37,290 nt of DNA from assembly GCA_937899905.1 (NCBI GenBank), contig CALCCF010000016.1, positions 1 through 37,290 of the forward strand, in the 5' to 3' direction. Shown here piece by piece: positions 2,264 to 16,711 of this stretch (the stretch's first letter is position 1; the number at the start of each line of letters is the position of its first letter). The translations under genes were made by a program, and so were the position numbers. The notes under the pieces are model-generated. The model saw only the letters and a list, made by a program, of their open reading frames with translations. It ran no database searches and had not been told where the DNA came from. This DNA comes from an uncultured Phycisphaeraceae bacterium (lineage in GTDB: Bacteria; Planctomycetota; Phycisphaerae; Phycisphaerales; UBA1924).

Positions 2264-4699
2264 CTAAAAGTCCGGCCCAACGCCGCCGCCATCTTCACCA
2301 TCTCCGCCACCGCCAACCGCCGGCGTCGCCACGATCCGTGGTGGCCGATCCTCCAGCGGGTACACCCATCGGACGAACGTTCGCCCGCTCAGGTTCGGGT
2401 CCCGACCATCGATCCGCATCGGTGTCGGGCTCGGCGCGCCCTCTCCATCAGGGCCGACACCCAGATGCCCCAGCACAATGATGCACGGCTGGGTCATCCA
2501 GATGCCAAGGTCGAGCCCGTGCATCACACGCCGTGTCGCCGCCGTGAACGAGTCGCTGCTTTGCCCCGTCGCCGGCGGCCCGATCTGGCTGATCAGGCTC
2601 GCGACAACGAGCTGCTCGCTCACGTTGCGATCACCGGAGGGCAGCGGTGTGGCTTGCGTGAAGCCGCTGATGCGCTGCAGGCCGCGCTCATCAAGCCAGT
2701 TGTGCAGCGCAACGTCCTCCGTGCCGCTCCGCCGAGTGGCGGCCGCAAGGTCGAGCTCGACGGCCGCCGGCCACGCACCCGAGAGCTTGAACGCCGACGC
2801 GTCCATGATCGGCCGATTCGTGCTGAACCCCGGCTGCACAACCTGCATGCCGTGGTTCACGATGATCACCACGTCGTGCAAGTCTCCGGGCAGGTCGTGC
2901 ACCAGCCGACCCTGCGCCTCGCTGCTCTCATCGGTGAGCGGCATCCCGATCGGTCGCGGCGTCGAGCGAAGCTCACCGGGCCCACCCGCGCCGTCTGTCG
3001 GCACCGGCATCGCCCACGACGTGGGCCCCGCCCACTGCACGGTCAGCTCCTTCATCGTCGAGCGCACCGGGAAGGTCATGCGCTCGGGCCGAGCGCCTGA
3101 CAAGGGGTACCCGCGATTGTCTGGAAAGCTGCCAATCGTCGCGTTGGTTTCGGGAGACATCCAAGGGCTCACCGTCGCGACGATCGAGCCGGCATCGGGG
3201 TTGCCAACCTCGAGCTCGGCCTCACCATATGACGGCACGATCAGGCCCGCCCACGTGCGCGTGCGCTGGATGTTCTCGCCAAACACATGATCGACAATGG
3301 TCAGGTGAGCCCCGCGAACCGAAGCCGGGCTCAGCAGCACGGCACCACCCCACGCGATGCCAGTGAAGAGCCCCGTCACGCCGACGAACGCCAGCCACGC
3401 GTGCTTTGATCGGCCGGACTTCTTGAGCACGGCGAAACCCACCGGGCCGGCCACCAACCAATACGTGATAAAGACGACGAAACCGAGGAGCACGCCCGAC
3501 GCCGGGCTGCCCGTCTGCGCGATCGTGTCGTCGATGCTGATGTCGTAGTGTCGCACCGACCGCGAGGGCTCGCGAATCTGCTGGCCGCGGATACTCCAGG
3601 GCCGCAGGTCGCCGCGGCGCCCGAGCACGCGATGCCAGAAGCTGCCCGGTGAGGGCGCACCGACCCGCGCCAAAGCCTCGGCGCCAACGTCCAATCCGAC
3701 CATCGTGACATGCCCGAGGCCCACTTGCCGCCGCACAACGATCGCGTTGCCGGCCGGGTCTCGAAGGACCACCGAGGTGCGCTCCGCGTCGAAGTCGTCA
3801 TCCTGGACCTCGAACGTGTGCGCAACGATCGTCGGCGGCAGCACGATATCGGATCGGGTCGTCAGCAACGGACGGATCGGCCCGGTCGGATAATCCGGAT
3901 CGCGCGTCGCCGTCACCGCGGGCATGATGTCGAACAGCGGGTTGTTGAGTTCGCCAGCGAACCACGTACCTCCGACTTGCGGCATGAGTACCACCAGGTG
4001 CCCGCCCTGCTGCACCCAACGCCGAAGCGTCTCCGCACGTCCCGCACCGAGCGTCACCGGCTCGCCAGCCGTCCACACAAACACGCCGTATTGGCTCAGG
4101 CCCGCCCACGCGTCGGGCATGGTTGAGGGCTCGATCCTCGTCGCGACCACCGTGGGTTCATGCAATCGACTGTCGTACGCCTCACTCTTGCCATCGCTGT
4201 ACGCTGTAAGCCCGGCTGTGGGCGCGCCGATGACGCCAATCAGGCCGACCTCGGGCCGAACCACCGCCGTAGGGGTCAAGAACGCCTCGCCGACCAGCCG
4301 GCCCGCACGCGGCGTCGCCGAATCCGTGTCCTCCGCCTCATACACGCGAGCCAGGATGCGCTCCCGCGCATCGAAACGGAACGGCAGCCGGAGGTACGTC
4401 CACAGCTCCTGCCGCTGCCCTGGGTTGGAGGCCAACCCTCGTTCGTACCACGTCGTGTCGCCGTCCGCGTCCTTAAACTCGATCCGCAGAAGGAGCTCGC
4501 GCTGCCGGACGCCACGGTCCGTGATCGCCAACCTCAGCCCCGCCCACGAACCGGCCCGAACCGCGTTGCCCAACCCAAACTCAACCGGAACGATCGCGAC
4601 CTCGCCCTGCCCGATACCAAGGGCCGCAGCAGGGTCGGGCAGCTCTGGCGCGTCCTGGGCCACCGCCGGAGCGCCGAGAACCAGCATGACCGCGAGCAC
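2264..4699 (-). CDS. Large exported membrane protein with GATase-like fold (function unknown)
   Basis: About 811 residues from a GTG at 4699. A hydrophobic stretch ending Ala-Val-Ala-Gln just before Asp-Ala-Pro-Glu looks like a signal peptidase site. The start is uncertain: ATG 4687 is slightly shorter, and ATG 4780 adds 27 residues including a basic one but would overlap the divergent gene at 4749. After a beta-rich region comes a segment containing GGHLVVLMP, typical of the class-I glutamine amidotransferase-like domain of planctomycetal membrane proteins (DUF4350-like). Two adjacent transmembrane helices follow near the middle (around GVLLGFVVFITYWLVAG and WLAFVGVTGLFTGIAW), then a long extracytoplasmic C-terminal half ending in a Gly-rich tail. 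It probably forms an operon with the ABC ATPase 55 bp downstream. Exact role unknown. Confidence 0.82.
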   Translation of the reverse strand: MLAVMLVLGAPAVAQDAPELPDPAAALGIGQGEVAIVPVEFGLGNAVRAGSWAGLRLAITDRGVRQRELLLRIEFKDADGDTTWYERGLASNPGQRQELWTYLRLPFRFDARERILARVYEAEDTDSATPRAGRLVGEAFLTPTAVVRPEVGLIGVIGAPTAGLTAYSDGKSEAYDSRLHEPTVVATRIEPSTMPDAWAGLSQYGVFVWTAGEPVTLGAGRAETLRRWVQQGGHLVVLMPQVGGTWFAGELNNPLFDIMPAVTATRDPDYPTGPIRPLLTTRSDIVLPPTIVAHTFEVQDDDFDAERTSVVLRDPAGNAIVVRRQVGLGHVTMVGLDVGAEALARVGAPSPGSFWHRVLGRRGDLRPWSIRGQQIREPSRSVRHYDISIDDTIAQTGSPASGVLLGFVVFITYWLVAGPVGFAVLKKSGRSKHAWLAFVGVTGLFTGIAWGGAVLLSPASVRGAHLTIVDHVFGENIQRTRTWAGLIVPSYGEAELEVGNPDAGSIVATVSPWMSPETNATIGSFPDNRGYPLSGARPERMTFPVRSTMKELTVQWAGPTSWAMPVPTDGAGGPGELRSTPRPIGMPLTDESSEAQGRLVHDLPGDLHDVVIIVNHGMQVVQPGFSTNRPIMDASAFKLSGAWPAAVELDLAAATRRSGTEDVALHNWLDERGLQRISGFTQATPLPSGDRNVSEQLVVASLISQIGPPATGQSSDSFTAATRRVMHGLDLGIWMTQPCIIVLGHLGVGPDGEGAPSPTPMRIDGRDPNLSGRTFVRWVYPLEDRPPRIVATPAVGGGGDGEDGGGVGPDF

Positions 4700-8370: not shown

Positions 8371-9696
8371 TTAATCCGGGCCGGGCCTTCGGCCGTTGTC
8401 GGTTCCTGTCGCTGAGCTACGCAACTCCAGCCATACCACGGCGGCTGCCCCGCGCCCGCTCCGAACGGCGCCCTCCATCGTGGCCGGCCAGCCGGTCGAC
8501 GTGGCATCCCCCGCCAGCACGCACCCCTGGTCGGCAAACAGGCCGGCACCCGGCCGCTGACGCTGGAATTCGGCCGTCGCGGCGAACGTCGCCCTCCGCT
8601 CCAGCACGGGCCGTGCCCACTCGACGGCCGCCCCCCGAGCCCGCGGCAGGTAGGCCTCGATCTCTTCGACCGTCCGGCGGACGATCTCGTCCTTGCCCAG
8701 GCCCACCCACGCGTCGGCGGCGCTCACCACGGCGTGCACCAGGTTCGGGTCGGCGGCCTTCGAGAACACCCACTGCACACCGCCCTCGACGAGCACCGCG
8801 TGCGGCACATCGAGCACCGGCCGGTCGTAGCGGATGTGGACACCCAGGATGGGGCTAAACCCGACGCCCGGGTATGGCGGCTGGCCATCAACGGAGACCA
8901 AGCGGTTCGCAGCCGCGGGGTCGAGCGCGCAGACCACGGCGTCTCCATGGAACTCGCCACCATCGGCACAGCGGACCAGCCTCGGCTCGATCGCGTTCAC
9001 CCGAGCCCCCAACTCGACGGCCCCACCCGCGGCCTCGAGGATGCCCGCCACGGGCTCGTACAGATCCGACAGCGGGCCCGTCGGCACACCGATGGCGGCC
9101 TCGCTCGCCCCGCCGAGCATTGCGCCCTGCACCACGTGCAGGCCGACCTCGGCACTGACACGCTCCGGCGCAAGGTTGCAGGCGCTGACGATCAACGGGT
9201 CCCAGAACCGCACGATGGCGCGATCGGTTGGCCGGGTGCCATCGAGCCAGTCCAGGAACGAGAGGTCGCCGAGGCTCGTCCGATCCGTTCGCCCCGCGAG
9301 CCGGGCCGCGCGCGCGATGCTGGCTTTATCCTTGAACGAGAGGAATCGAGCGGTGACCATCGACGGCGCGAACGCGGCAGGGCCCGGCAACGGAAGCGGT
9401 CGGAGCGTGCTGCGTCGCCCGCCGGGCTCGATCCACGTCTGCCTGGTGCCCCACGCGAGTTGGTCGGCCACGCCCAGCCTCTCGAGCAACTCCACGTACA
9501 CACGGCAGGCCGCCATGGTCACGTGCTGGCAGTTGTCGAGGACCTCGCCCGTGCGCGCATCTTCGAAGCTCCCGGCCCTCCCGCCAAGCCGGCGTCGAGC
9601 TTCGAGCAGCGTTACCGCCACCCCCTGGTCGGCCAGCATGATCGCCGCCGAGATCCCCGCCAAGCCACCACCGACGACAACCGCGTTCGGTGCCAT
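8371..9696 (-). CDS. hpnE: Hydroxysqualene dehydroxylase HpnE (FAD-dependent)
   Basis: A 441-residue flavoprotein of the squalene-associated FAD-dependent desaturase family. The N-terminal dinucleotide-binding motif is VVVGGGLAG (about 6-14), followed by LLEARRRLGGRAGSF, typical of the amine oxidase/phytoene desaturase fold. Near the C-terminus GLFADQGCVLAGDATSTGWPATMEGA is the second FAD-contacting motif. In characterised hopanoid producers HpnE reduces hydroxysqualene to squalene in the third step from farnesyl diphosphate. The start is ATG 9696. Its 5' end lies 3 bp after the hpnD stop, so it is the last gene of hpnCDE. No squalene-hopene cyclase is visible here, so the end product (squalene, hopanoid or sterol) cannot be decided. 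Confidence 0.95.
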   Translation of the reverse strand: MAPNAVVVGGGLAGISAAIMLADQGVAVTLLEARRRLGGRAGSFEDARTGEVLDNCQHVTMAACRVYVELLERLGVADQLAWGTRQTWIEPGGRRSTLRPLPLPGPAAFAPSMVTARFLSFKDKASIARAARLAGRTDRTSLGDLSFLDWLDGTRPTDRAIVRFWDPLIVSACNLAPERVSAEVGLHVVQGAMLGGASEAAIGVPTGPLSDLYEPVAGILEAAGGAVELGARVNAIEPRLVRCADGGEFHGDAVVCALDPAAANRLVSVDGQPPYPGVGFSPILGVHIRYDRPVLDVPHAVLVEGGVQWVFSKAADPNLVHAVVSAADAWVGLGKDEIVRRTVEEIEAYLPRARGAAVEWARPVLERRATFAATAEFQRQRPGAGLFADQGCVLAGDATSTGWPATMEGAVRSGRGAAAVVWLELRSSATGTDNGRRPGPD

Positions 9697-9699
9697 CGG

Positions 9700-10596
9700 C
9701 TACGCCAGCCTCCCGGCCGCGAGCACGCGGCGGCCTAGCGCGCCCACGGCGATGCCGAGCTTAGCCCCACCACCGAGCGCACCACCGGCCCCCGCCATTC
9801 GCAGGCGGTGCGCGATCAGCGTGTATGCCCGCGTCATCGCCCACATGGCCGGCCCAGCATCGCGTCGCACCATGGCGTCAAGCGGCGCGCTCGACTCCAG
9901 CAGGTCATGGGCCTCGCGCAACAGGTCTTGTCGGACGGCTGGGTCGCCGATGTCGGCTCCCAAGCGCCCGAGGCGTTCGATAGGTACGTACCGCCTGCCG
10001 GCGCGTTCGTCATCGCCGATGTCGCGCGCAACATTGATGAGTTGGAACGCCCGGCCGCGTTGCCCCGCCAGCTCGAACGCGTCCGCCGGCACAACACCCG
10101 ATCGAACGCCCCAGATCGCCACGCAGCACCGGCCGACATTGCCCGCCACCCGATCGCAGTATTGCACCAACTCCGAATCGTGCTCGAAAGCGATCGGCTC
10201 CAGGTCTTGCCGGACGCCATCGAGCAAAGAGCGGAACCACTCGGGCTTGATACCACACGACCCGATCGAGTGCGAGAGCGCCGGCCAGATGCCTCGGCTG
10301 GGCGATTCGCCAGCGAGCACGGACTCGGTCGATGCCGCGAACCGATCAAGCACAAGTCGACGCTGCTCTGCCGGCGCGAGGGCATCCGCCGCATCGTCGG
10401 CCAGTCGCATCCAAGCGTACAGGGCGTGCATGTCCGGGCGGCAGCGGCTGGGGGTCAGGCGGATTCCTACGGCGAAGCTGGAGCCCGCACGCGACGTGAT
10501 TTCCCTACAGACCGCTCTGGACCGCTCGAGGTCGGTGGGACTCTCGCCCTGGATCAACGATGAGACCCGTTCGAGTTCGTTCTGGACGTCCGGCAC
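9700..10596 (-). CDS. hpnD: Presqualene diphosphate synthase HpnD
   Basis: A 298-residue trans-isoprenyl diphosphate synthase (squalene/phytoene synthase family). The first Asp-rich motif is in YAWMRLADDAADAL and the second in NVARDIGDDERAGRRYVP. Together they bind the Mg2+-diphosphate groups of two farnesyl diphosphates. It is assigned HpnD (head-to-head condensation to presqualene diphosphate) from its position between hpnC and hpnE and its overall pattern. The start is GTG 10596, overlapping the end of hpnC by 43 nt. A TTG at 10557, which overlaps the hpnC stop in a TTGA arrangement, is an alternative and would leave 285 residues. Translational coupling with hpnC is likely either way. Confidence 0.93.
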   Translation of the reverse strand: MPDVQNELERVSSLIQGESPTDLERSRAVCREITSRAGSSFAVGIRLTPSRCRPDMHALYAWMRLADDAADALAPAEQRRLVLDRFAASTESVLAGESPSRGIWPALSHSIGSCGIKPEWFRSLLDGVRQDLEPIAFEHDSELVQYCDRVAGNVGRCCVAIWGVRSGVVPADAFELAGQRGRAFQLINVARDIGDDERAGRRYVPIERLGRLGADIGDPAVRQDLLREAHDLLESSAPLDAMVRRDAGPAMWAMTRAYTLIAHRLRMAGAGGALGGGAKLGIAVGALGRRVLAAGRLA

Positions 10597-11576
10597 GCCC
10601 CGAAATATAGCGAGGCAAACCCACGCGCCGCGATGATGGCCTTCCTCGACGTGCCGACTTTCGGCCGGTGCCAGAGCGTCGCGCAGCCGATGCGTTCGAT
10701 CTCCCCAAGCGTTGCGCGACCGCCCATGGCCATCATCCCAACCAGCGCTCCGATCCGACCGCCGACTCGTGCGGGAAGGCCCTCTCCCGTCGCATACAGG
10801 CCGGCAGTTCGCTCAACCAGCGGCCGCACACCACGGATGTACCGCACGCGTGCGACCGGATCCTTCGGCGTATCCAGCCATCTGCGCAGCTCATCGACAC
10901 GAAAGCCCACCTCGGCCGATGGCAGGTACACGCGATCTCTGTCAACGAGGTCTCGCCGGACATCTTGGATGTGGTTGGTCACTTGCAAGGCCGTGCAGAT
11001 GGCGTCGCTCGCGTCCCAGGCGTCCTGGTTGGCTGCCTTTTCGTCGGGCGGGCGCAGGCCGGCCATCATCAGCACAATCCGGCCCACCGGATCGGCGCTG
11101 AGCTTGCAATACCCGAGCAGCTCGTCCCAGGTCTGGTACCAACGCACACGCTGGTCCATCTCAAAGGCGGAAATGAGCTTGCCGAACTCGGCCCGTGGAA
11201 GGCGGTGCCGATCGATCGTGGGGCGCAGGGCGACGAGCACGGGGTGCGTGGGCTCTTCTGCCTCCAACTCGCGACGGAACCAGCCGAGCAGTTCGAGCGA
11301 TCGCGCTCGGATGGCATGGGGATCTGGATCTGGACCGAGCGAGGGGTCGACCTCGTCGCCCAGGTCATCAGCCCACCGGCAGAACGTGTAAACAGCGGCG
11401 AAGTCCTCGACCAGTTCGGGCGGCAGGAGCTTGCCGAGGACCACGAAGTTCTCGCTGGCCCCTCGCGCGAAGCCCACCGCGTACGAGCGGGCCTGCTCGA
11501 CGGTCGCCGTGCCGCCACCGGGCCCGAACTCGGCCAGCGTGTCCATCACCGACTTGGCTGGGTCCAGACCGGCCAC
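10554..11576 (-). CDS. hpnC: Hydroxysqualene synthase HpnC
   Basis: A 340-residue squalene/phytoene synthase-family protein, first gene of hpnC-hpnD-hpnE. The metal motifs are in FCRWADDLGDE (first) and NHIQDVRRDLVDRDRVYLP (second). In the three-enzyme pathway HpnC converts presqualene diphosphate to hydroxysqualene. The start is GTG 11576 because AGGAGG sits 4 nt upstream. The frame is open to a TTG at 11597, and ATG 11546 is a shorter option. The gene diverges from ispH across a 48-bp gap, so both promoters must be compressed into, or overlap, this region. HpnC versus HpnD is separated by gene order and similarity pattern; a profile comparison would confirm. Confidence 0.92.
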   Translation of the reverse strand: MAGLDPAKSVMDTLAEFGPGGGTATVEQARSYAVGFARGASENFVVLGKLLPPELVEDFAAVYTFCRWADDLGDEVDPSLGPDPDPHAIRARSLELLGWFRRELEAEEPTHPVLVALRPTIDRHRLPRAEFGKLISAFEMDQRVRWYQTWDELLGYCKLSADPVGRIVLMMAGLRPPDEKAANQDAWDASDAICTALQVTNHIQDVRRDLVDRDRVYLPSAEVGFRVDELRRWLDTPKDPVARVRYIRGVRPLVERTAGLYATGEGLPARVGGRIGALVGMMAMGGRATLGEIERIGCATLWHRPKVGTSRKAIIAARGFASLYFGACRTSRTNSNGSHR

Positions 11577-11613
11577 ATGCCCTCCTGCGCGAACCAACCG
11601 TACGCCTCCAACC

Positions 11614-11624: not shown

Positions 11625-12674
11625 GTGAAGCTCCTTCTCCCGAATCCGCGCGGGTTTTGCGCGGGCGTCAGCATGGCCATCGACGTGGTGGACCAGGTCT
11701 TGGACCTGTGTCCGGGCGAGGCGGTGTACGTCTACCACGACATCGTGCACAACACGCACGTCGTGAATCGCTTCCGCGACCGGGGCGTGATCTTCGTTGA
11801 GGATGTGGATCTGGTGCCGAGCGGGGCGATTGTGGTCTTCAGCGCCCATGGCATCCCGCCCAGTGTACGCCAGCGGGCCGTGGACCGCGGGCTTCGTGTG
11901 ATCGACGCGACGTGCCCGCTGGTGACCAAGGTGCACAACGAGGCGATCCGCTACGCCAAGCTCGGCTATCAGATCTTGCTCGTGGGCCACAAAGAGCACC
12001 AGGAGATCATTGGGACGCGCGGTGAGGCCCCGGACGCGACACAGGTCGTCGAATCGCCCGAAGACATCCCGCATCTCCACATCGATGATCCCCACAAGCT
12101 GGTCTATCTGACCCAGACGACCCTGAGCACCGACGACGCCGCGGTCATCATCGATGCACTCCGGGCAGCGTTCCCGCACATCAAGAGCCCGCCGAGCGAG
12201 GACATCTGCTACGCGACGACCAACCGCCAGCACGCCGTCCGCACGCTCGCGCCCATGTGCGACCTCACGCTGGTCGTCGGCTCGACCAATAGCAGCAACA
12301 GCAAGCGGCTTACGGAGATCAGCGGGCACGCGGGCACACCGGGCAAGCTGATCGACGATGCGAGCCAGATCGATCACGGGTGGTTCGGCTCGGCCGACGA
12401 CACCGTGTTAATCACCGCTGGCGCGAGTGCGCCCGAGGACCTCGTGGCCCAGGTCTGCCGCACGCTGCTGGACCGCTACGGCGGCGAAATCCAGGCGTGC
12501 GATGTCTTCGAGGAAGATGTGTACTTCGCCCAGCCTGCCGGGCTCAAGAAGATGATGCGAGCCCAGGGGATCGACCCGAAATCGCGCGCGATCCGGGTCA
12601 CCAAGCCGACCGTATCGGCCGAGATCTACGGGGCAACCGCACTCACCATCAGTGCACCCGAGCGACGCGCGTAA
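11625..12674 (+). CDS. ispH: 4-hydroxy-3-methylbut-2-enyl diphosphate reductase IspH
   Basis: A 349-residue [4Fe-4S] enzyme that reduces HMBPP to IPP and DMAPP, the last step of the MEP pathway. The three cluster cysteines are visible: C12 (RGFCAGV), C97 (DATCPLV) and C195 (EDICYATTNRQ). Substrate residues H42, H75, H122 and E124, and the TNSSNS loop (221-226) that holds the diphosphate, are all present. Length is somewhat above the approximately 315 of E. coli because of the C-terminus. The start is GTG, immediately after a -10-like hexamer with no ribosome binding site. It is divergent from hpnC, so IPP/DMAPP formation and squalene formation sit side by side. Convergent with a Bfd-like [2Fe-2S] protein 6 bp away, whose possible role as electron carrier is only a guess. 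Confidence 0.97.
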   Translation: MKLLLPNPRGFCAGVSMAIDVVDQVLDLCPGEAVYVYHDIVHNTHVVNRFRDRGVIFVEDVDLVPSGAIVVFSAHGIPPSVRQRAVDRGLRVIDATCPLVTKVHNEAIRYAKLGYQILLVGHKEHQEIIGTRGEAPDATQVVESPEDIPHLHIDDPHKLVYLTQTTLSTDDAAVIIDALRAAFPHIKSPPSEDICYATTNRQHAVRTLAPMCDLTLVVGSTNSSNSKRLTEISGHAGTPGKLIDDASQIDHGWFGSADDTVLITAGASAPEDLVAQVCRTLLDRYGGEIQACDVFEEDVYFAQPAGLKKMMRAQGIDPKSRAIRVTKPTVSAEIYGATALTISAPERRA

Positions 12675-12680
12675 ATCTGG

Positions 12681-13079
12681 CTATGAACCTTGAGAGGGGC
12701 CTGATCCGTTCACCGAGCGGGAACCGACGCGTGGCTCACTCGACTCGAAGCTCTTGGCCGTGACACCTTGAGGACTCGACTGGCGGTTCACCGCAGACTC
12801 GGCTTCTTCGGCGATCTCCCGGAGTGCGCGACCGTTCATCAGCGGGATGCTCGTGCGTCCGGTGCTCAGCACCACACGAACGTACTGCTTGCACATGCCA
12901 CAGCCCGTGCAACATCCGGTGCGATCGCTCAGCTGCTCCAGCGAGAGATCCTCTTGGCGGGACATCTCGAGCAGCTTCTCAAAAGACTGGTTGAAGCACA
13001 CGCATCGCTCCACTCGGACGCGTGATGATGGCCGATCGAGATCGGCGATGCTCGCTTTGCTTTTCGAGTCGTGCCCCAT
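12681..13079 (-). CDS. Bfd-like [2Fe-2S] protein
   Basis: A 132-residue protein with a central BFD-type [2Fe-2S] domain (about 24-75). Cys26-x-Cys28 and Cys60-x2-Cys63 in RCVCFNQ and TGCGMC are the likely ligands; two further cysteines at 56-57 precede the second pair. Bacterioferritin-associated ferredoxin itself is about 64 residues and helps mobilise iron. The same domain also serves in nitrite reductase and in small electron carriers. The polar N- and C-terminal tails are not recognised. The gene lies 36 bp after the pseudopilin of the cobalamin-riboswitch operon and could be its last gene, or it may have its own promoter. It ends 6 bp from ispH on the opposite strand. Confidence 0.88.
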   Translation of the reverse strand: MGHDSKSKASIADLDRPSSRVRVERCVCFNQSFEKLLEMSRQEDLSLEQLSDRTGCCTGCGMCKQYVRVVLSTGRTSIPLMNGRALREIAEEAESAVNRQSSPQGVTAKSFESSEPRVGSRSVNGSGPSQGS

Positions 13080-13115: not shown

Positions 13116-13937
13116 TCAGCGCCAGTCCCGCCAATCGGGTATATAGCGAGGATCGTTCTGGAAGCCGATAGACCCGATTCCCGCCTCCGGTTGCGTGAGC
13201 CAGGAAGCCTCGGCGCGGTGCCCACGGGCGCTGCCATCGGCGTGCACGGCCATGCAGAGGCCACCAGGGCCCCTTGTGCCGTGCCTGAAGCAGGTTGTCG
13301 GGAACGCGTTCACGCGCCACCGACCGCGTCCTGCGTACAGCTGGGGGGGATCGAGCAGCGCATTGCTGGCCGGTAATGCGCCCGGGCCCTGGCTGATAAG
13401 CGTGTCGGCAAACACGAGAAGCTCGGTAGGTTGGGCAATCGAACTCATCCATTGTAAGGGACGATGCTGAATTTCATAGGACCAACCCGGAGTAAATTCT
13501 GGGGTTAAAAAGTACCCGTTGTATCCGTACGTGCTCGTGGGCGTGCTCGTCGCGCCCTGGTGCTCATACGTTCCGCGGCGCTGGGCGGGGCAGGCGTAGG
13601 GCCCGATGTCGCCCGGTTTTGCATCCAGGTATGGCGTCAGCAAGCCACGCTCATGGTCGAGCTCGCCTGAGACCGAACCATCGGCGCCCCACCAGAAGAT
13701 GTTGTCGCCGCCACGCGTATCGCGCACATCCGTGTACGCGAGCGGCATGGCCAGCCCGTCATAGTCGCCCGCGTACACGAGCCACGCGGTGCCAAGCTGC
13801 CGCACGTTGCTGAGGCACTGTGCCGAACGCGCGGCCTCGCGTGCGCCGGCCAGGGCGGGCAGCAGCACGCCCACGAGCGTCGCGATGATGGCCACGACCA
13901 CCAGCAGCTCGATGAGGGTGAAGCCCGCTCTGCGCAC
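13116..13937 (-). CDS. Pseudopilin with DG-containing C-terminus, third gene of the riboswitch operon
   Basis: A 273-residue pseudopilin. The start is GTG 13937, which overlaps the TAG stop of the preceding gene in the sequence TAGTG. The protein then begins Met-Arg-Arg-Ala-Gly|Phe-Thr-Leu-Ile-Glu, so the leader is only five residues. The pilin helix runs to about residue 25. The C-terminal half contains the RHGTRGPGG ... VHADG segment expected of planctomycetal 'processing-associated DG' pseudopilins, and several aromatic, Gly- and Tyr-rich stretches. Translational coupling to a secreted beta-propeller gene is notable, because such pseudopilins are often encoded alone. It may form part of a short pseudopilus that moves or displays the two upstream surface proteins; this is inference. 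Confidence 0.92.
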
Positions 13938-15361
13938 TAGCCACACCCCGCGTCGAACGCGTTCTGGAAGCACAAGAAGTCGAATAGCGTGAGGGTGCCG
14001 TCGCCGTCGCAGTCGGCCAGGACATCGCCGCGATCGAAGGCGTTCTGGAACGCGAGGAAGTCGAATATTGTCAGCTCGCCATCGCCGTCAAAATCAGCGA
14101 AGCAGGCGTCGTGATATGCGAACGCCAAGACCCCGTCGATCCAGGCGCTCACCGCCACGCCACTGGAAACCGCGGGCGCACCGCCACCGAGCGTCGTGCG
14201 ATCGATGACGAACTCGCTACCGGCCGGATCGGCATTGAGATCCAGCAGCGCGAGCCCCCCGCCACGACCGCCGACGAGCAGCGCTGGTCCGTCGGGCGTG
14301 TCCAGCACGGCCGGCTGGTGGTCCCAGCCGCCATAGCTGAGGTACTCACCGGGGTCGACCTCGCCGTTGCCATTGAGGTCGTCCCAGGTTTCGGTGACCA
14401 GGTCCCACAGCATCGTTCCCGATGCATCGAAGAGCTGTACCGTCGCGAGCGAACCGAAGCCGTCGATGCCTCCAGAGAGCACGATGCGCCCGTCGTCGAG
14501 CACGATGGGCACGGCGTCGGTGCGCTCGCACGCCGTGGTCCAAAGTTCGTCGCCCGTCGCAGCGTCGTACTTGGCCATGATGCTGTTGCTGCGGCCACCA
14601 AAAAACCCGTAGGTAGGCGCGTAGGCCGCGCCATCGACGATGCTCGGCCCACCGAAGAACCCCTCCTCCAGGGGCTCGTCGATGGTCCAGAGCGAGTCGA
14701 GGGCGAAGTCGAACGCGTACATCACGCCGTCGATGTCGCCGACGAGCACGCGGCCATCGGCCACCGCCGGCGTCGCGCCCGAGGTTGGGCCGAAGGCCTC
14801 ATCACCAAGCACATCGCCGCTCACCGCATCGATCGAGACCAGGCGCCCACCGCCCGCGGGCGCATAGGTCGTGACGATGACACGAGCCGGGTCGCCCACG
14901 ATCGCCGGCGACGCATTGACCATGCGTTGGCCGAGGTCCACGCTCCAGATCTCCGAGCCATCGGCCAGATCCAGACCGACAATGCCGAAGCCCGAGGCGA
15001 CGGCGACCAGGCCATCATCGATCGTGCCTTGGACCGCTGGCGAGGCCCAGGACAAGAACTCGGGCGGCGCAATGGGCGTGCGCCAGAGCTCCCGGCCATC
15101 CGATGCATCGAGCGCAAAGGCGAACGCGTCGGGTCCGGTCCACCCCAGCACGACGACCACGCCGTCCTCAGAGATGACCGGGCCAGACTGGCCGACGGAC
15201 TCGAACTCGCCGTCGGCGTCGAACGTCCAGGCGGCGCTCGACAGGTCAGGCAACGCCGGCACGCTGGCGATGCCACGACGCTCGGGCGTGGCCGCGTAGT
15301 GCGTCCACTCTTGCCCGAGCGCTGGGCTCGCCGCCAGCGCGATGAGCAGCGATGCACGCAT
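13937..15361 (-). CDS. Exported PQQ-like beta-propeller protein with GC-type dockerin anchor
   Basis: A 474-residue protein. ATG 15361 overlaps the TAA stop of the upstream gene (TAATG). Residues 1-17 form a signal peptide ending Ala-Leu-Gly-Gln. Most of the rest is a PQQ-type propeller: each blade ends in an Asp-Gly-x-x-x-Trp pattern ([34 protein letters not shown]) between short beta strands. The last approximately 55 residues hold two Asp-rich repeats ([15 protein letters not shown] and [15 protein letters not shown]), each followed by a Phe-Gln-Asn-Ala-Phe-Asp helix, and end Ala-Gly-Cys-Gly. These match the GC-type dockerin-like tail taken to hold proteins at the cell surface. No PQQ-dehydrogenase catalytic residues are evident, so ligand binding is more likely than catalysis. 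Confidence 0.93.
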
Positions 15362-16266
15362 TACGGGCAGCCCGTCGTGAACGCGTCCTGGAACGCGAGG
15401 AAGTCGAAGAGGTCGAGCGCGCCGCTGGCGTCGAAGTCGGCCCGAGCGTCGCCGGTCACGAACCGGTTCTGGAACTCCAGGAAGTCGAAGACGGTCAGGA
15501 AACCATCGCCGTCGATGTCGGCCGGGCACGTGGCCGCGACGTCGGCAAACGCGTCGATCTCCGGGGACCCCGAGGAGGACGCAATGCGCACGAAGCTGAT
15601 CTCACTCAGGTCGACCGTCGCGATATCAACGCCGACACCGCCTCCAGAGCCGTCGTAGGCCGCGACGAGTTCCACGAAGTTGAGACCGATGGGGTCCAGC
15701 GTTGGATCAACGGGCTTGGTGAAGTCGCTTGGCACAGAACCGGCCGAGGTGTCGTACGGGCCCGTGAGATCGAGGTATCCCAGCGTGGCGTTCGGGCCGT
15801 CGGCGTCGACGCCATCGATGAGGAACCACTCGACGCCATCCGCGGAGACCTCGATTGTCCCTCCTTCGGCGAAGATGCCCGAAACCAAGCCATCGGGGAA
15901 GGAAGCGTCGGTGTACAGGGCGTTCGAGAAGACAAGCAGGTCGATGCCAAACGGGTTGGTGGCGTCATCGGTGATCGGTTCGTCGAATTCGACCACGAGG
16001 AATCCACCGGCGCCGATGCTCACCAACTCGTCACGCCCAAACGGCGGGTTGAACGGGGTAACGGAACCAGGGAAGACGCCCTCTCCGGTAAATCGCTCGG
16101 GCGGACCGAGGGTCGTGAGCGGGTCGGTAAACCCAACGGCAGGCTCGGACCCTTCGGCGTAGTCGACCACGCGATCGGCCCAAGGATCGAACAGGCCCTG
16201 GGCCATGGCGGCGGGAGCGACAGCAGAAGAAATCAATCCAGCGAATGCGATAGCTGCGGTGCGCAT
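15361..16266 (-). CDS. Secreted beta-rich surface protein with GC-type dockerin anchor, first gene of the riboswitch operon
   Basis: A 301-residue protein. ATG 16266 has AGGAG about 6 nt upstream. The signal peptide is 1-23, ending Ala-Met-Ala-Gln. The mature part is predicted beta-sandwich: GAGGFLVVEFDEPI, then NPFGIDLLVFSNALY, IEVSADGVEWFLIDG and ISFVRIA. This order (smooth surface loop, 'EVS-DG-x-W', then 'VRI') resembles discoidin-like surface proteins; I cannot name the family. Near the C-terminus two Asp-rich dockerin-like repeats follow, and the protein ends Thr-Gly-Cys-Pro. The second repeat has Ala-Ser-Gly in place of Gly-Asp-Gly, so its calcium site may be weak. It sits about 200 nt downstream of a cobalamin riboswitch, which implies B12-repressed expression. 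Confidence 0.93.
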   Translation of the reverse strand: MRTAAIAFAGLISSAVAPAAMAQGLFDPWADRVVDYAEGSEPAVGFTDPLTTLGPPERFTGEGVFPGSVTPFNPPFGRDELVSIGAGGFLVVEFDEPITDDATNPFGIDLLVFSNALYTDASFPDGLVSGIFAEGGTIEVSADGVEWFLIDGVDADGPNATLGYLDLTGPYDTSAGSVPSDFTKPVDPTLDPIGLNFVELVAAYDGSGGGVGVDIATVDLSEISFVRIASSSGSPEIDAFADVAATCPADIDGDGFLTVFDFLEFQNRFVTGDARADFDASGALDLFDFLAFQDAFTTGCP

Positions 16267-16273
16267 GGCGCAC
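16259..16273 (-). promoter_or_regulatory. Start-codon hairpin of the riboswitch operon
   Basis: GTGCGC and GCGCAC form a perfect 6-bp inverted repeat around CAT on the minus strand. The ATG at 16266-16264 therefore lies in the loop and at the first base of the 3' arm, and the AGGAG element abuts the 5' arm. Such a fold could hinder ribosome entry and may be the translational output of the upstream riboswitch. This is read from sequence; its use is inference. Confidence 0.45.
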
Positions 16274-16389
16274 TCCTTTCGTGCCGACGTATGGCCGGCG
16301 TCGATGCGTCCCGAAATCGCGCGGGACGGCCCCGGACCGAGTCGCCCGCATGGGGCGTGTCCAGTGAGTCGCGCTCGCTGTGGGTACAT

Positions 16390-16436
16390 TGACGCGGCAA
16401 CGCGCACGCCCGGGGCAACGGGGACGCACCGCGTCA
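16390..16436 (-). promoter_or_regulatory. Leader hairpin between riboswitch aptamer and first gene
   Basis: TGACGCGG (plus 16390-16397) pairs with CCGCGTCA (16429-16436) across a 31-nt GC-rich loop that can fold further. It begins 26 nt downstream of the aptamer on the minus strand. There is no T run after it, so it is not a standard intrinsic terminator; an antiterminator, anti-sequestor or Rho-related element is possible. Confidence 0.4.
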
Positions 16437-16462
16437 CCCGTTTCGCGAGGGCGACGACGCAT

Positions 16463-16677
16463 GCTGGTGGCAGGTCTTCCGGCTTCGGGCCCGAGTCTCG
16501 GCGTGCCTTCCCGCGGCGTCAGGAGAACGACGCTCGCAGTGGCGTGTGCGGCCCTGGTTCTACCCAGAGCGGCCGAGGTCGGAGGCGGCCCGTTACGGCG
16601 GCGCGTCCGCGGTGGCTTCTCACCACGCTTCCCTTTTCACTCCGGTAGGGCGCTTGCCATCCCGGAGAACCACTAGC
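16463..16677 (-). promoter_or_regulatory. Cobalamin (B12) riboswitch aptamer, class I
   Basis: On the minus strand the conserved elements occur in order. P1 is GCTAGTGG/CCACCAGC, closed with one mismatch. P2 is CTCCGG/CCGGAG. Then come AAAAGGGAAGC, the GTGG..CCAC arm with GTGAGAAGCC, a GCGG..CCGC arm with GTAACGGG, CACGCCACTGCGAG, GGGAAGGC and finally the B12 box CCGAAGCCGGAAGACCTGCC near 16466-16489. The match to the classical aptamer is extensive and the strand is unambiguous. It lies 197 nt upstream of the ATG at 16266, so adenosylcobalamin or another corrinoid should repress the dockerin/beta-propeller operon. The expression platform is not certain; two downstream hairpins are listed separately. 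Confidence 0.95.
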
Positions 16678-16682
16678 GGTTC

Positions 16683-16711
16683 AGCCTACTCCGTGTCTGG
16701 TCGCGGATCAA
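16683..16711 (-). promoter_or_regulatory. Candidate sigma70-type promoter of the riboswitch operon
   Basis: On the minus strand TTGATC (plus 16706-16711) and TAGGCT (16683-16688) are separated by 17 bp. The -35 matches four of six bases and the -10 three of six. Transcription would start near 16676, almost exactly at the 5' end of the riboswitch P1 stem, which supports the assignment despite the weak -10. Confidence 0.55.

Follow-up and report, generated by a model that had tools for sequence, protein, structure and literature searches.

A complete cobalamin riboswitch in the window (the whole stretch of 37,290 nucleotides analyzed here) is followed by three coupled genes, A, B and C, the first of which encodes an exported protein whose predicted structure has the fold of the cobalamin-binding domain BtuH. 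On account of this fold, the locus is read as a B12-capture operon without btuB: A-B-C quite probably forms a B12-repressible operon for extracellular cobalamin capture, directed toward an ABC importer. At low B12, the riboswitch would permit translation and the three proteins would be produced, and ample cobalamin would close the aptamer and repress them. The BtuH domain of A would bind cobalamin at the cell surface or in the exported space, anchored by a dockerin tail rather than by lipid, and A would then pass it on toward the importer, with B and C perhaps assisting in capture, display or outer-membrane passage. In the genus of the window, that passage would seemingly proceed without a TonB-dependent BtuB.

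The Riboswitch and the Operon Behind It

The features on which the analysis is based are listed below.

16452..16689, minus strand: cobalamin riboswitch aptamer (RF00174; cmscan)
16600..16606, minus strand: aptamer segment ACGCGCC, candidate L5 loop (conservation of CGCGG-(A/T)CGCGC; putative L5 assignment)
16432..16456, minus strand: hairpin H1, loop TCGCGAAAC, candidate P13/L13 (recurrence of the CGCG-looped hairpin)
16307..16328, minus strand: hairpin H2, loop CGCGATTT, proposed as a second L13-like hairpin, close to the ribosome-binding site (recurrence and covariation)
16273..16277, minus strand: Shine-Dalgarno AGGAG of gene A (sequence reading; start codon at 16266)
15361..16266, minus strand: gene A, exported BtuH-domain homologue by predicted fold, with GC-type dockerin tail (translation; dockerin NF041540, 40.8 bits; fold)
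13937..15361, minus strand: gene B, an exported beta-propeller of the PQQ-like type that ends in a GC-type dockerin (PQQ_2, 82.5 bits; dockerin; BamB-like fold)
13116..13937, minus strand: gene C, prepilin-like (N_methyl and weak DUF1559 domain matches; start overlaps the stop of B)
12681..13079, minus strand: BFD-like small [2Fe-2S] protein after C (Fer2_BFD, 23.6 bits against a cut-off of 26)

A sequence-only reading of this DNA had proposed a strong B12 aptamer at 16463-16677 on the minus strand, with an intact core and B12 box and a single mismatch in P1. The covariance-model search with the Rfam Cobalamin family (cmscan) agrees on element and strand, matching RF00174 at 16689-16452 on the minus strand with 65.1 bits (E 4.8e-14; gathering score 31.5) over the complete model (1-189), so that the earlier boundaries fall 11-12 nt short at each end. 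The element has both its aptamer core and its B12 box, and the single mismatch, an A-C, holds for the inner P1 helix (CUAGUGG/CCACCAG), with more non-pairs marked by the model farther out. This is the only RF00174 match in the genome assembly (G000, 3.63 Mb), a draft of 113 contigs with 95% completeness. In itself, the riboswitch is ordinary.

The start codon of gene A lies 185 nt downstream of the aptamer. The stop of A overlaps the start of B in TAATG and the stop of B overlaps the start of C in TAGTG, and A, B and C are therefore regarded as coupled. The suggestion that the only gene this switch can control is a secreted protein was thus right as to what lies directly downstream, but too narrow as to the unit, which comprises at least three genes. 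Sec-type signal peptides can be read at the N-termini of A and B, both of which end in GC-type dockerins; no lipobox is found in A, and the N-terminus of C has a prepilin cleavage motif. BtuG is not supported as an identity for gene B by its best 50 Foldseek matches, which are BamB, tetrathionate hydrolase, and designed and other propellers. The BFD-like gene possibly shares the A-B-C transcript, and in 22 loci clustering finds a homologue downstream of the riboswitch operon. Farther downstream on the same strand, 8371-11597 holds genes resembling squalene/phytoene synthases and a flavin amine oxidase, which we take to be of the HpnC, HpnD and HpnE type; an IspH-like gene on the plus strand (11625-12674) lies between them and the C-side genes.

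Gene A as a BtuH-Domain Protein

Pfam scanning of A gave no usable family and only a weak EF-hand row (E up to 1), and A did not match DUF4465 (PF14717). A profile of 30 A homologues searched against the PDB reached 8blw_B (1e-11) and 7biz_A (1.6e-8), and a profile of both A subtypes without the dockerin tails reached the same chains at 1.2e-9 and 5.7e-7, respectively. In the source papers, the 7BIZ structure is described as BtuH2 crystallized with B12, and 8BLW as BtuB1-BtuG1 with a C-terminal BtuH domain (PMC10404256; PMC8941943). The profile of the window's subtype alone (A2) yielded dockerins and chance rows but no BtuH in the PDB at E <= 1, and the structure of the window protein was therefore predicted (pLDDT 94.7 and pTM 0.92, from 48 rows of its own subtype). 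When the predicted structure was compared with 990 chains by VIA-align, 8blw_B ranked first (Z 13.2, rmsd 3.3, 147 aligned, 24% identity) and 7biz_A second (Z 13.0, rmsd 3.0, 138 aligned, 25% identity); the next matches were unrelated proteins at Z 9.7, and CBM32 and other jelly rolls scored Z 8 to 10. With Foldseek, 8blw_B was the sole match at E <= 0.001, at a modest TM-score of 0.41, and 7biz_A was absent among the best 50 matches listed. The link between A and BtuH therefore passes through the fold and an intermediate subtype, and, judged from the predicted structure, gene A encodes a planctomycete BtuH-domain protein.

The cobalamin contacts of BtuH2 (Gln333, Asn399, Phe401, Tyr510, Trp511, Trp577 and Leu578) can be placed on matching residues of the 7biz chain with an inferred offset of 100. 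With this numbering, Asn399, which contacts the phosphate in BtuH2, corresponds to Asn115 of A and is kept in all 30 rows, and Gln333 (in PAPGQ) is kept in 7 of 30 and absent from the window protein; among the BtuH2 contacts, the Asn alone is kept throughout the A homologues. On the modeled fold, the window subtype likely binds cobalamin, maybe through contacts other than those of BtuH2, since the equivalent of Gln333 is missing and the Asn is kept. A literature search (with most subscription papers outside it) yielded no description of a planctomycete BtuH and no planctomycete cobalamin riboswitch with a secreted protein, and only single mentions of a cobalamin riboswitch under Phycisphaer-; a planctomycete BtuH-domain protein has apparently not been described before.

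Distribution of Gene A and Its Riboswitch

The distribution was analyzed in 61 genomes of the order, namely that of the window and 60 relatives. RF00174 was matched in 58 of them (57 over the cut-off; 55 genomes with one match and three with two), and a genome-wide search with the A1 profile found core A in at least 52. Among the matches listed, 51 of the 52 core-A genes lie 50-1768 nt downstream of a riboswitch on the same strand; in G041, A is on a separate contig and the riboswitch contig ends soon after the switch. Six of the 58 genomes have a riboswitch without core A among the matches listed, including G052 and G053, which carry a more distant member of the cluster there. In a core-only search, each of the ten order genomes with a match showed a single gene (in two pieces in G326). 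These counts are not independent, because the genomes share ancestry and the A1 and A8 profiles were built from riboswitch loci.

The reverse test started from A: among 80 loci obtained by A homology, 34 were scanned, and RF00174 lies just upstream on the same strand in 31, the exceptions being L106, L114 and L122; some of the loci belong to genomes already in the set (e.g., L095, G001). Labels such as Leptolyngbya, Kuenenia, Limnohabitans and Bacteroidia are attached to L104, L106, L121 and L133, whose operons are of the planctomycete type; these labels look wrong. In a sample of the phylum, core A was detected in 33 of 294 genomes, 23 of them outside the order. In 20 of these 23, a riboswitch lies upstream of A (18 within 1.9 kb and two at 4.6 kb); of the others, G148 and G183 start at a contig edge and G322 has no riboswitch.

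These results alter part of the sequence-only reading, which had placed the aptamer in an unexpected genomic setting with no cobalamin-transport gene nearby: the first gene has a predicted BtuH fold, and similar loci are found repeatedly, both within the order and outside it. It was right, however, that the locus is a guide to B12-regulon members not listed before.

Other Genes Behind the Riboswitch

The partner genes swap among loci, the versions observed being A-B-C, a c3 propeller upstream of A and C, a version with A and C alone, c4 proteins, and a TonB receptor. Counted by homology cluster, a prepilin is present at 52 of the 61 riboswitch loci, and its strict motif was found in 42 of 61 compared with 0.08 expected per stretch upstream. 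The c3 propellers, which have a PEP-CTERM-like tail, stand first behind the riboswitch in 20 loci (L075, L052, L066 and 17 others); their profile gave weak YncE and hydrazine-synthase rows against solved structures (best 0.0032) and no clear relative. Short secreted proteins of the c4 type open five riboswitch operons (L072, L051, L085, L056 and L050), with a similar one in L182; the c4-type group also includes L082. Those scanned matched no Pfam family except PEP-CTERM, and not DUF4465, and a c4 profile search returned nothing useful; they are possibly another B12-binding family. In G048, a TonB receptor stands behind the riboswitch, at the usual place of A.

Two loci join A to DUF4465. In L184, the riboswitch is followed by DUF4465 (2.3e-56), A, a prepilin, Peripla_BP_2, an ABC ATPase and FecCD, and in L183 by a DUF1559 prepilin, A and DUF4465. 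DUF4465 proteins bind B12, and a member from Mucisphaera calidilacus (Phycisphaerales) co-purified with B12, according to the part of the report available (PMC13398666). In L181, from a planctomycete of another class, a protein of PKD-PKD-BtuH-like architecture (2322-4121) stands behind a cobalamin riboswitch.

Leader Hairpins and the Start Region

Two recurrent CGCG-looped hairpins stand in the leader between aptamer and gene A. The first, H1, lies directly 3′ of the aptamer and occurs at 44 of the 61 loci, where base shuffles would give 5.4 and dinucleotide shuffles 7.9; H2, farther downstream, occurs at 56 of 61 (13.4 and 17.4 expected, respectively). The 3′ end of H2 mostly lies 11-40 nt upstream of the start codon, with outliers. 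In all 38 sequences with a 7-nt loop, double changes occur in 7 of 7 pairs of H2, and the covariation score is 0.646, compared with 0.248 after shuffling and at most 0.137 after sliding. The stem is paired in 96.6% of cells in these 38 sequences and in 98.2% in a subset of 32 of them, percentages that are inflated because the sequences were chosen for possessing the stem, which affects the double changes less.

The CGCGG-(A/T)CGCGC of the aptamer is kept in 58 of 61 riboswitches, and its CGCG is complementary to those of the leader hairpins. As CGCG is also self-complementary, the partners are not fixed, and either H1 or H2 could be the partner of L5. In the published kissing-loop model, as far as the available part of the paper describes it, contact between L5 and L13 stabilizes P13 and hence the hairpin at the ribosome-binding site (PMC10653944). 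The analogy suggests that L5 may bind the loop of H1 or H2 and thereby govern which state the start region adopts. The minimum free energy of the leader is no better than that of shuffles (z 0.03), and no terminator or sigma-70 promoter pattern was found on the riboswitch strand. In the window, CTCCT of the variable hairpin flanked by CACTG and CGGGAA can pair with AGGAG, but its role as an anti-Shine-Dalgarno was rejected because it is not conserved in other members of the genus.

Apparent B12 Requirement and the Possible Outer-Membrane Route

The gene content of the order suggests dependence on external corrinoids or B12, because the MetH activation domain is present in 60 of 61 genomes, the MetE N-terminal domain exceeds the cut-off in none of the 61 (one weak row, in G048), and CbiC is found in none of them, although control genomes matched. 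FecCD permeases, for which other ligands are possible, occur in 58 of 61. The TonB Plug domain was detected in 21 of the 61 order genomes and in 4 of the 37 of the family, and neither Plug nor barrel in any of the seven genomes of the window's genus (0/7 each), which include the single-contig G004 and others at 98-100% completeness.

The distribution of receptors bears most directly on ordinary BtuB-dependent uptake, in which A would be an accessory catcher feeding a TonB-dependent BtuB that assemblies missed or that has diverged too far for the models to recognize. The draft state of the window's genome would leave room for a missed gene, TonB receptors do exist in the order and in 15 of the 23 A-bearing genomes outside it, and the G048 riboswitch precedes one. 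However, the lack of matches to both domains in all seven genomes of the genus, single-contig and near-complete genomes included, and the scarcity of Plug in the family make this explanation somewhat unlikely for the window. Plug was also more frequent in genomes without core A (6 of 9, compared with 15 of 52 with it, among the matches listed), but a link between the receptor and a missing A was set aside because the difference (Fisher p 0.052) is confounded by ancestry.

A different function would be required if A, B and C were B12-repressed surface proteins with another purpose, such as adhesion to B12-producing algae or bacteria, and A did not bind B12. Dockerin tails, a jelly-roll fold common to carbohydrate-binding modules and the loss of most BtuH2 contact residues would all suit such a role, but the BtuH domains score 3.5 Z above the carbohydrate modules and A is found in operons together with DUF4465 and a BtuFDC-like importer, and we therefore consider it improbable. 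Nor does the switch look like a non-regulating relic. The missing promoter and terminator patterns and the unremarkable folding energy would fit one, but the aptamer is kept in 58 of 61 genomes and at 31 of 34 A loci, and H2 covaries strongly, which makes a relic very improbable.

Capture of B12 by an operon without btuB thus remains the preferred reading of A-B-C, and it applies to the window's family rather than to all A operons, since many A-bearing genomes outside the order have plugs. G115, the source of L184, is not receptor-free either, as it has seven plug matches, one of them approximately 5 kb from its second riboswitch. A more specific proposal, which we put forward as speculative and rather unlikely, is that planctomycetes of this family import B12 across the outer membrane with no TonB-dependent receptor at all: A and B would act as exported catchers under riboswitch control, a pilus-like machine of the pseudopilin C would display the loaded catcher or carry it inward, and a BtuFCD-type importer would follow.

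The apparent absence of BtuB is what gives the locus its interest. The lineage seems to depend on external B12 and yet gives no indication of the usual outer-membrane receptor, which points to an unexplained uptake route and makes the passage of a molecule as large as B12 a testable question, for which the conserved prepilin of the operon and the doubled CGCG hairpin of the leader provide concrete leads. BtuH-type B12 capture would also be extended from gut Bacteroidetes to planctomycetes, and a secreted family without a Pfam name would gain a probable function.

Comparison with Known Systems

The riboswitch resembles class-I cobalamin riboswitches with an L5-L13 kissing loop in its aptamer and in the complementary CGCG of its leader hairpins, but it differs in having two CGCG-looped hairpins, a doubling not found in the available parts of the literature compared, which was no full survey. 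The operon shares riboswitch-controlled cobalamin uptake, as proposed here, with the TonB-dependent BtuB and BtuB-BtuG systems, and a TonB receptor does follow the switch in G048, whereas TonB-receptor domains were not found in the window's genus (0/7). The B12-binding DUF4465/BtuJ proteins occur in the same riboswitch operons as A (L183 and L184), although neither A nor the c4 proteins match DUF4465.

The closest comparison is with BtuH of Bacteroides thetaiotaomicron (BtuH2, BT_1956, and the H domain of BtuG1, BT_1490); the parts available of the source paper report BtuH from gut Bacteroidetes and three Firmicutes (PMC8941943). Unlike the Bacteroides proteins, the window protein has a GC-type dockerin in place of a lipobox and does not keep most corrin contacts, and its operon contains a PQQ-like propeller and a prepilin, with no evident btuB or btuG. 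The two nevertheless have in common the domain fold, as predicted for A, the control by a cobalamin riboswitch, export and the Asn at the phosphate contact, and the planctomycete protein of L181 has two PKD stretches before its BtuH-like domain, much like BtuH2.
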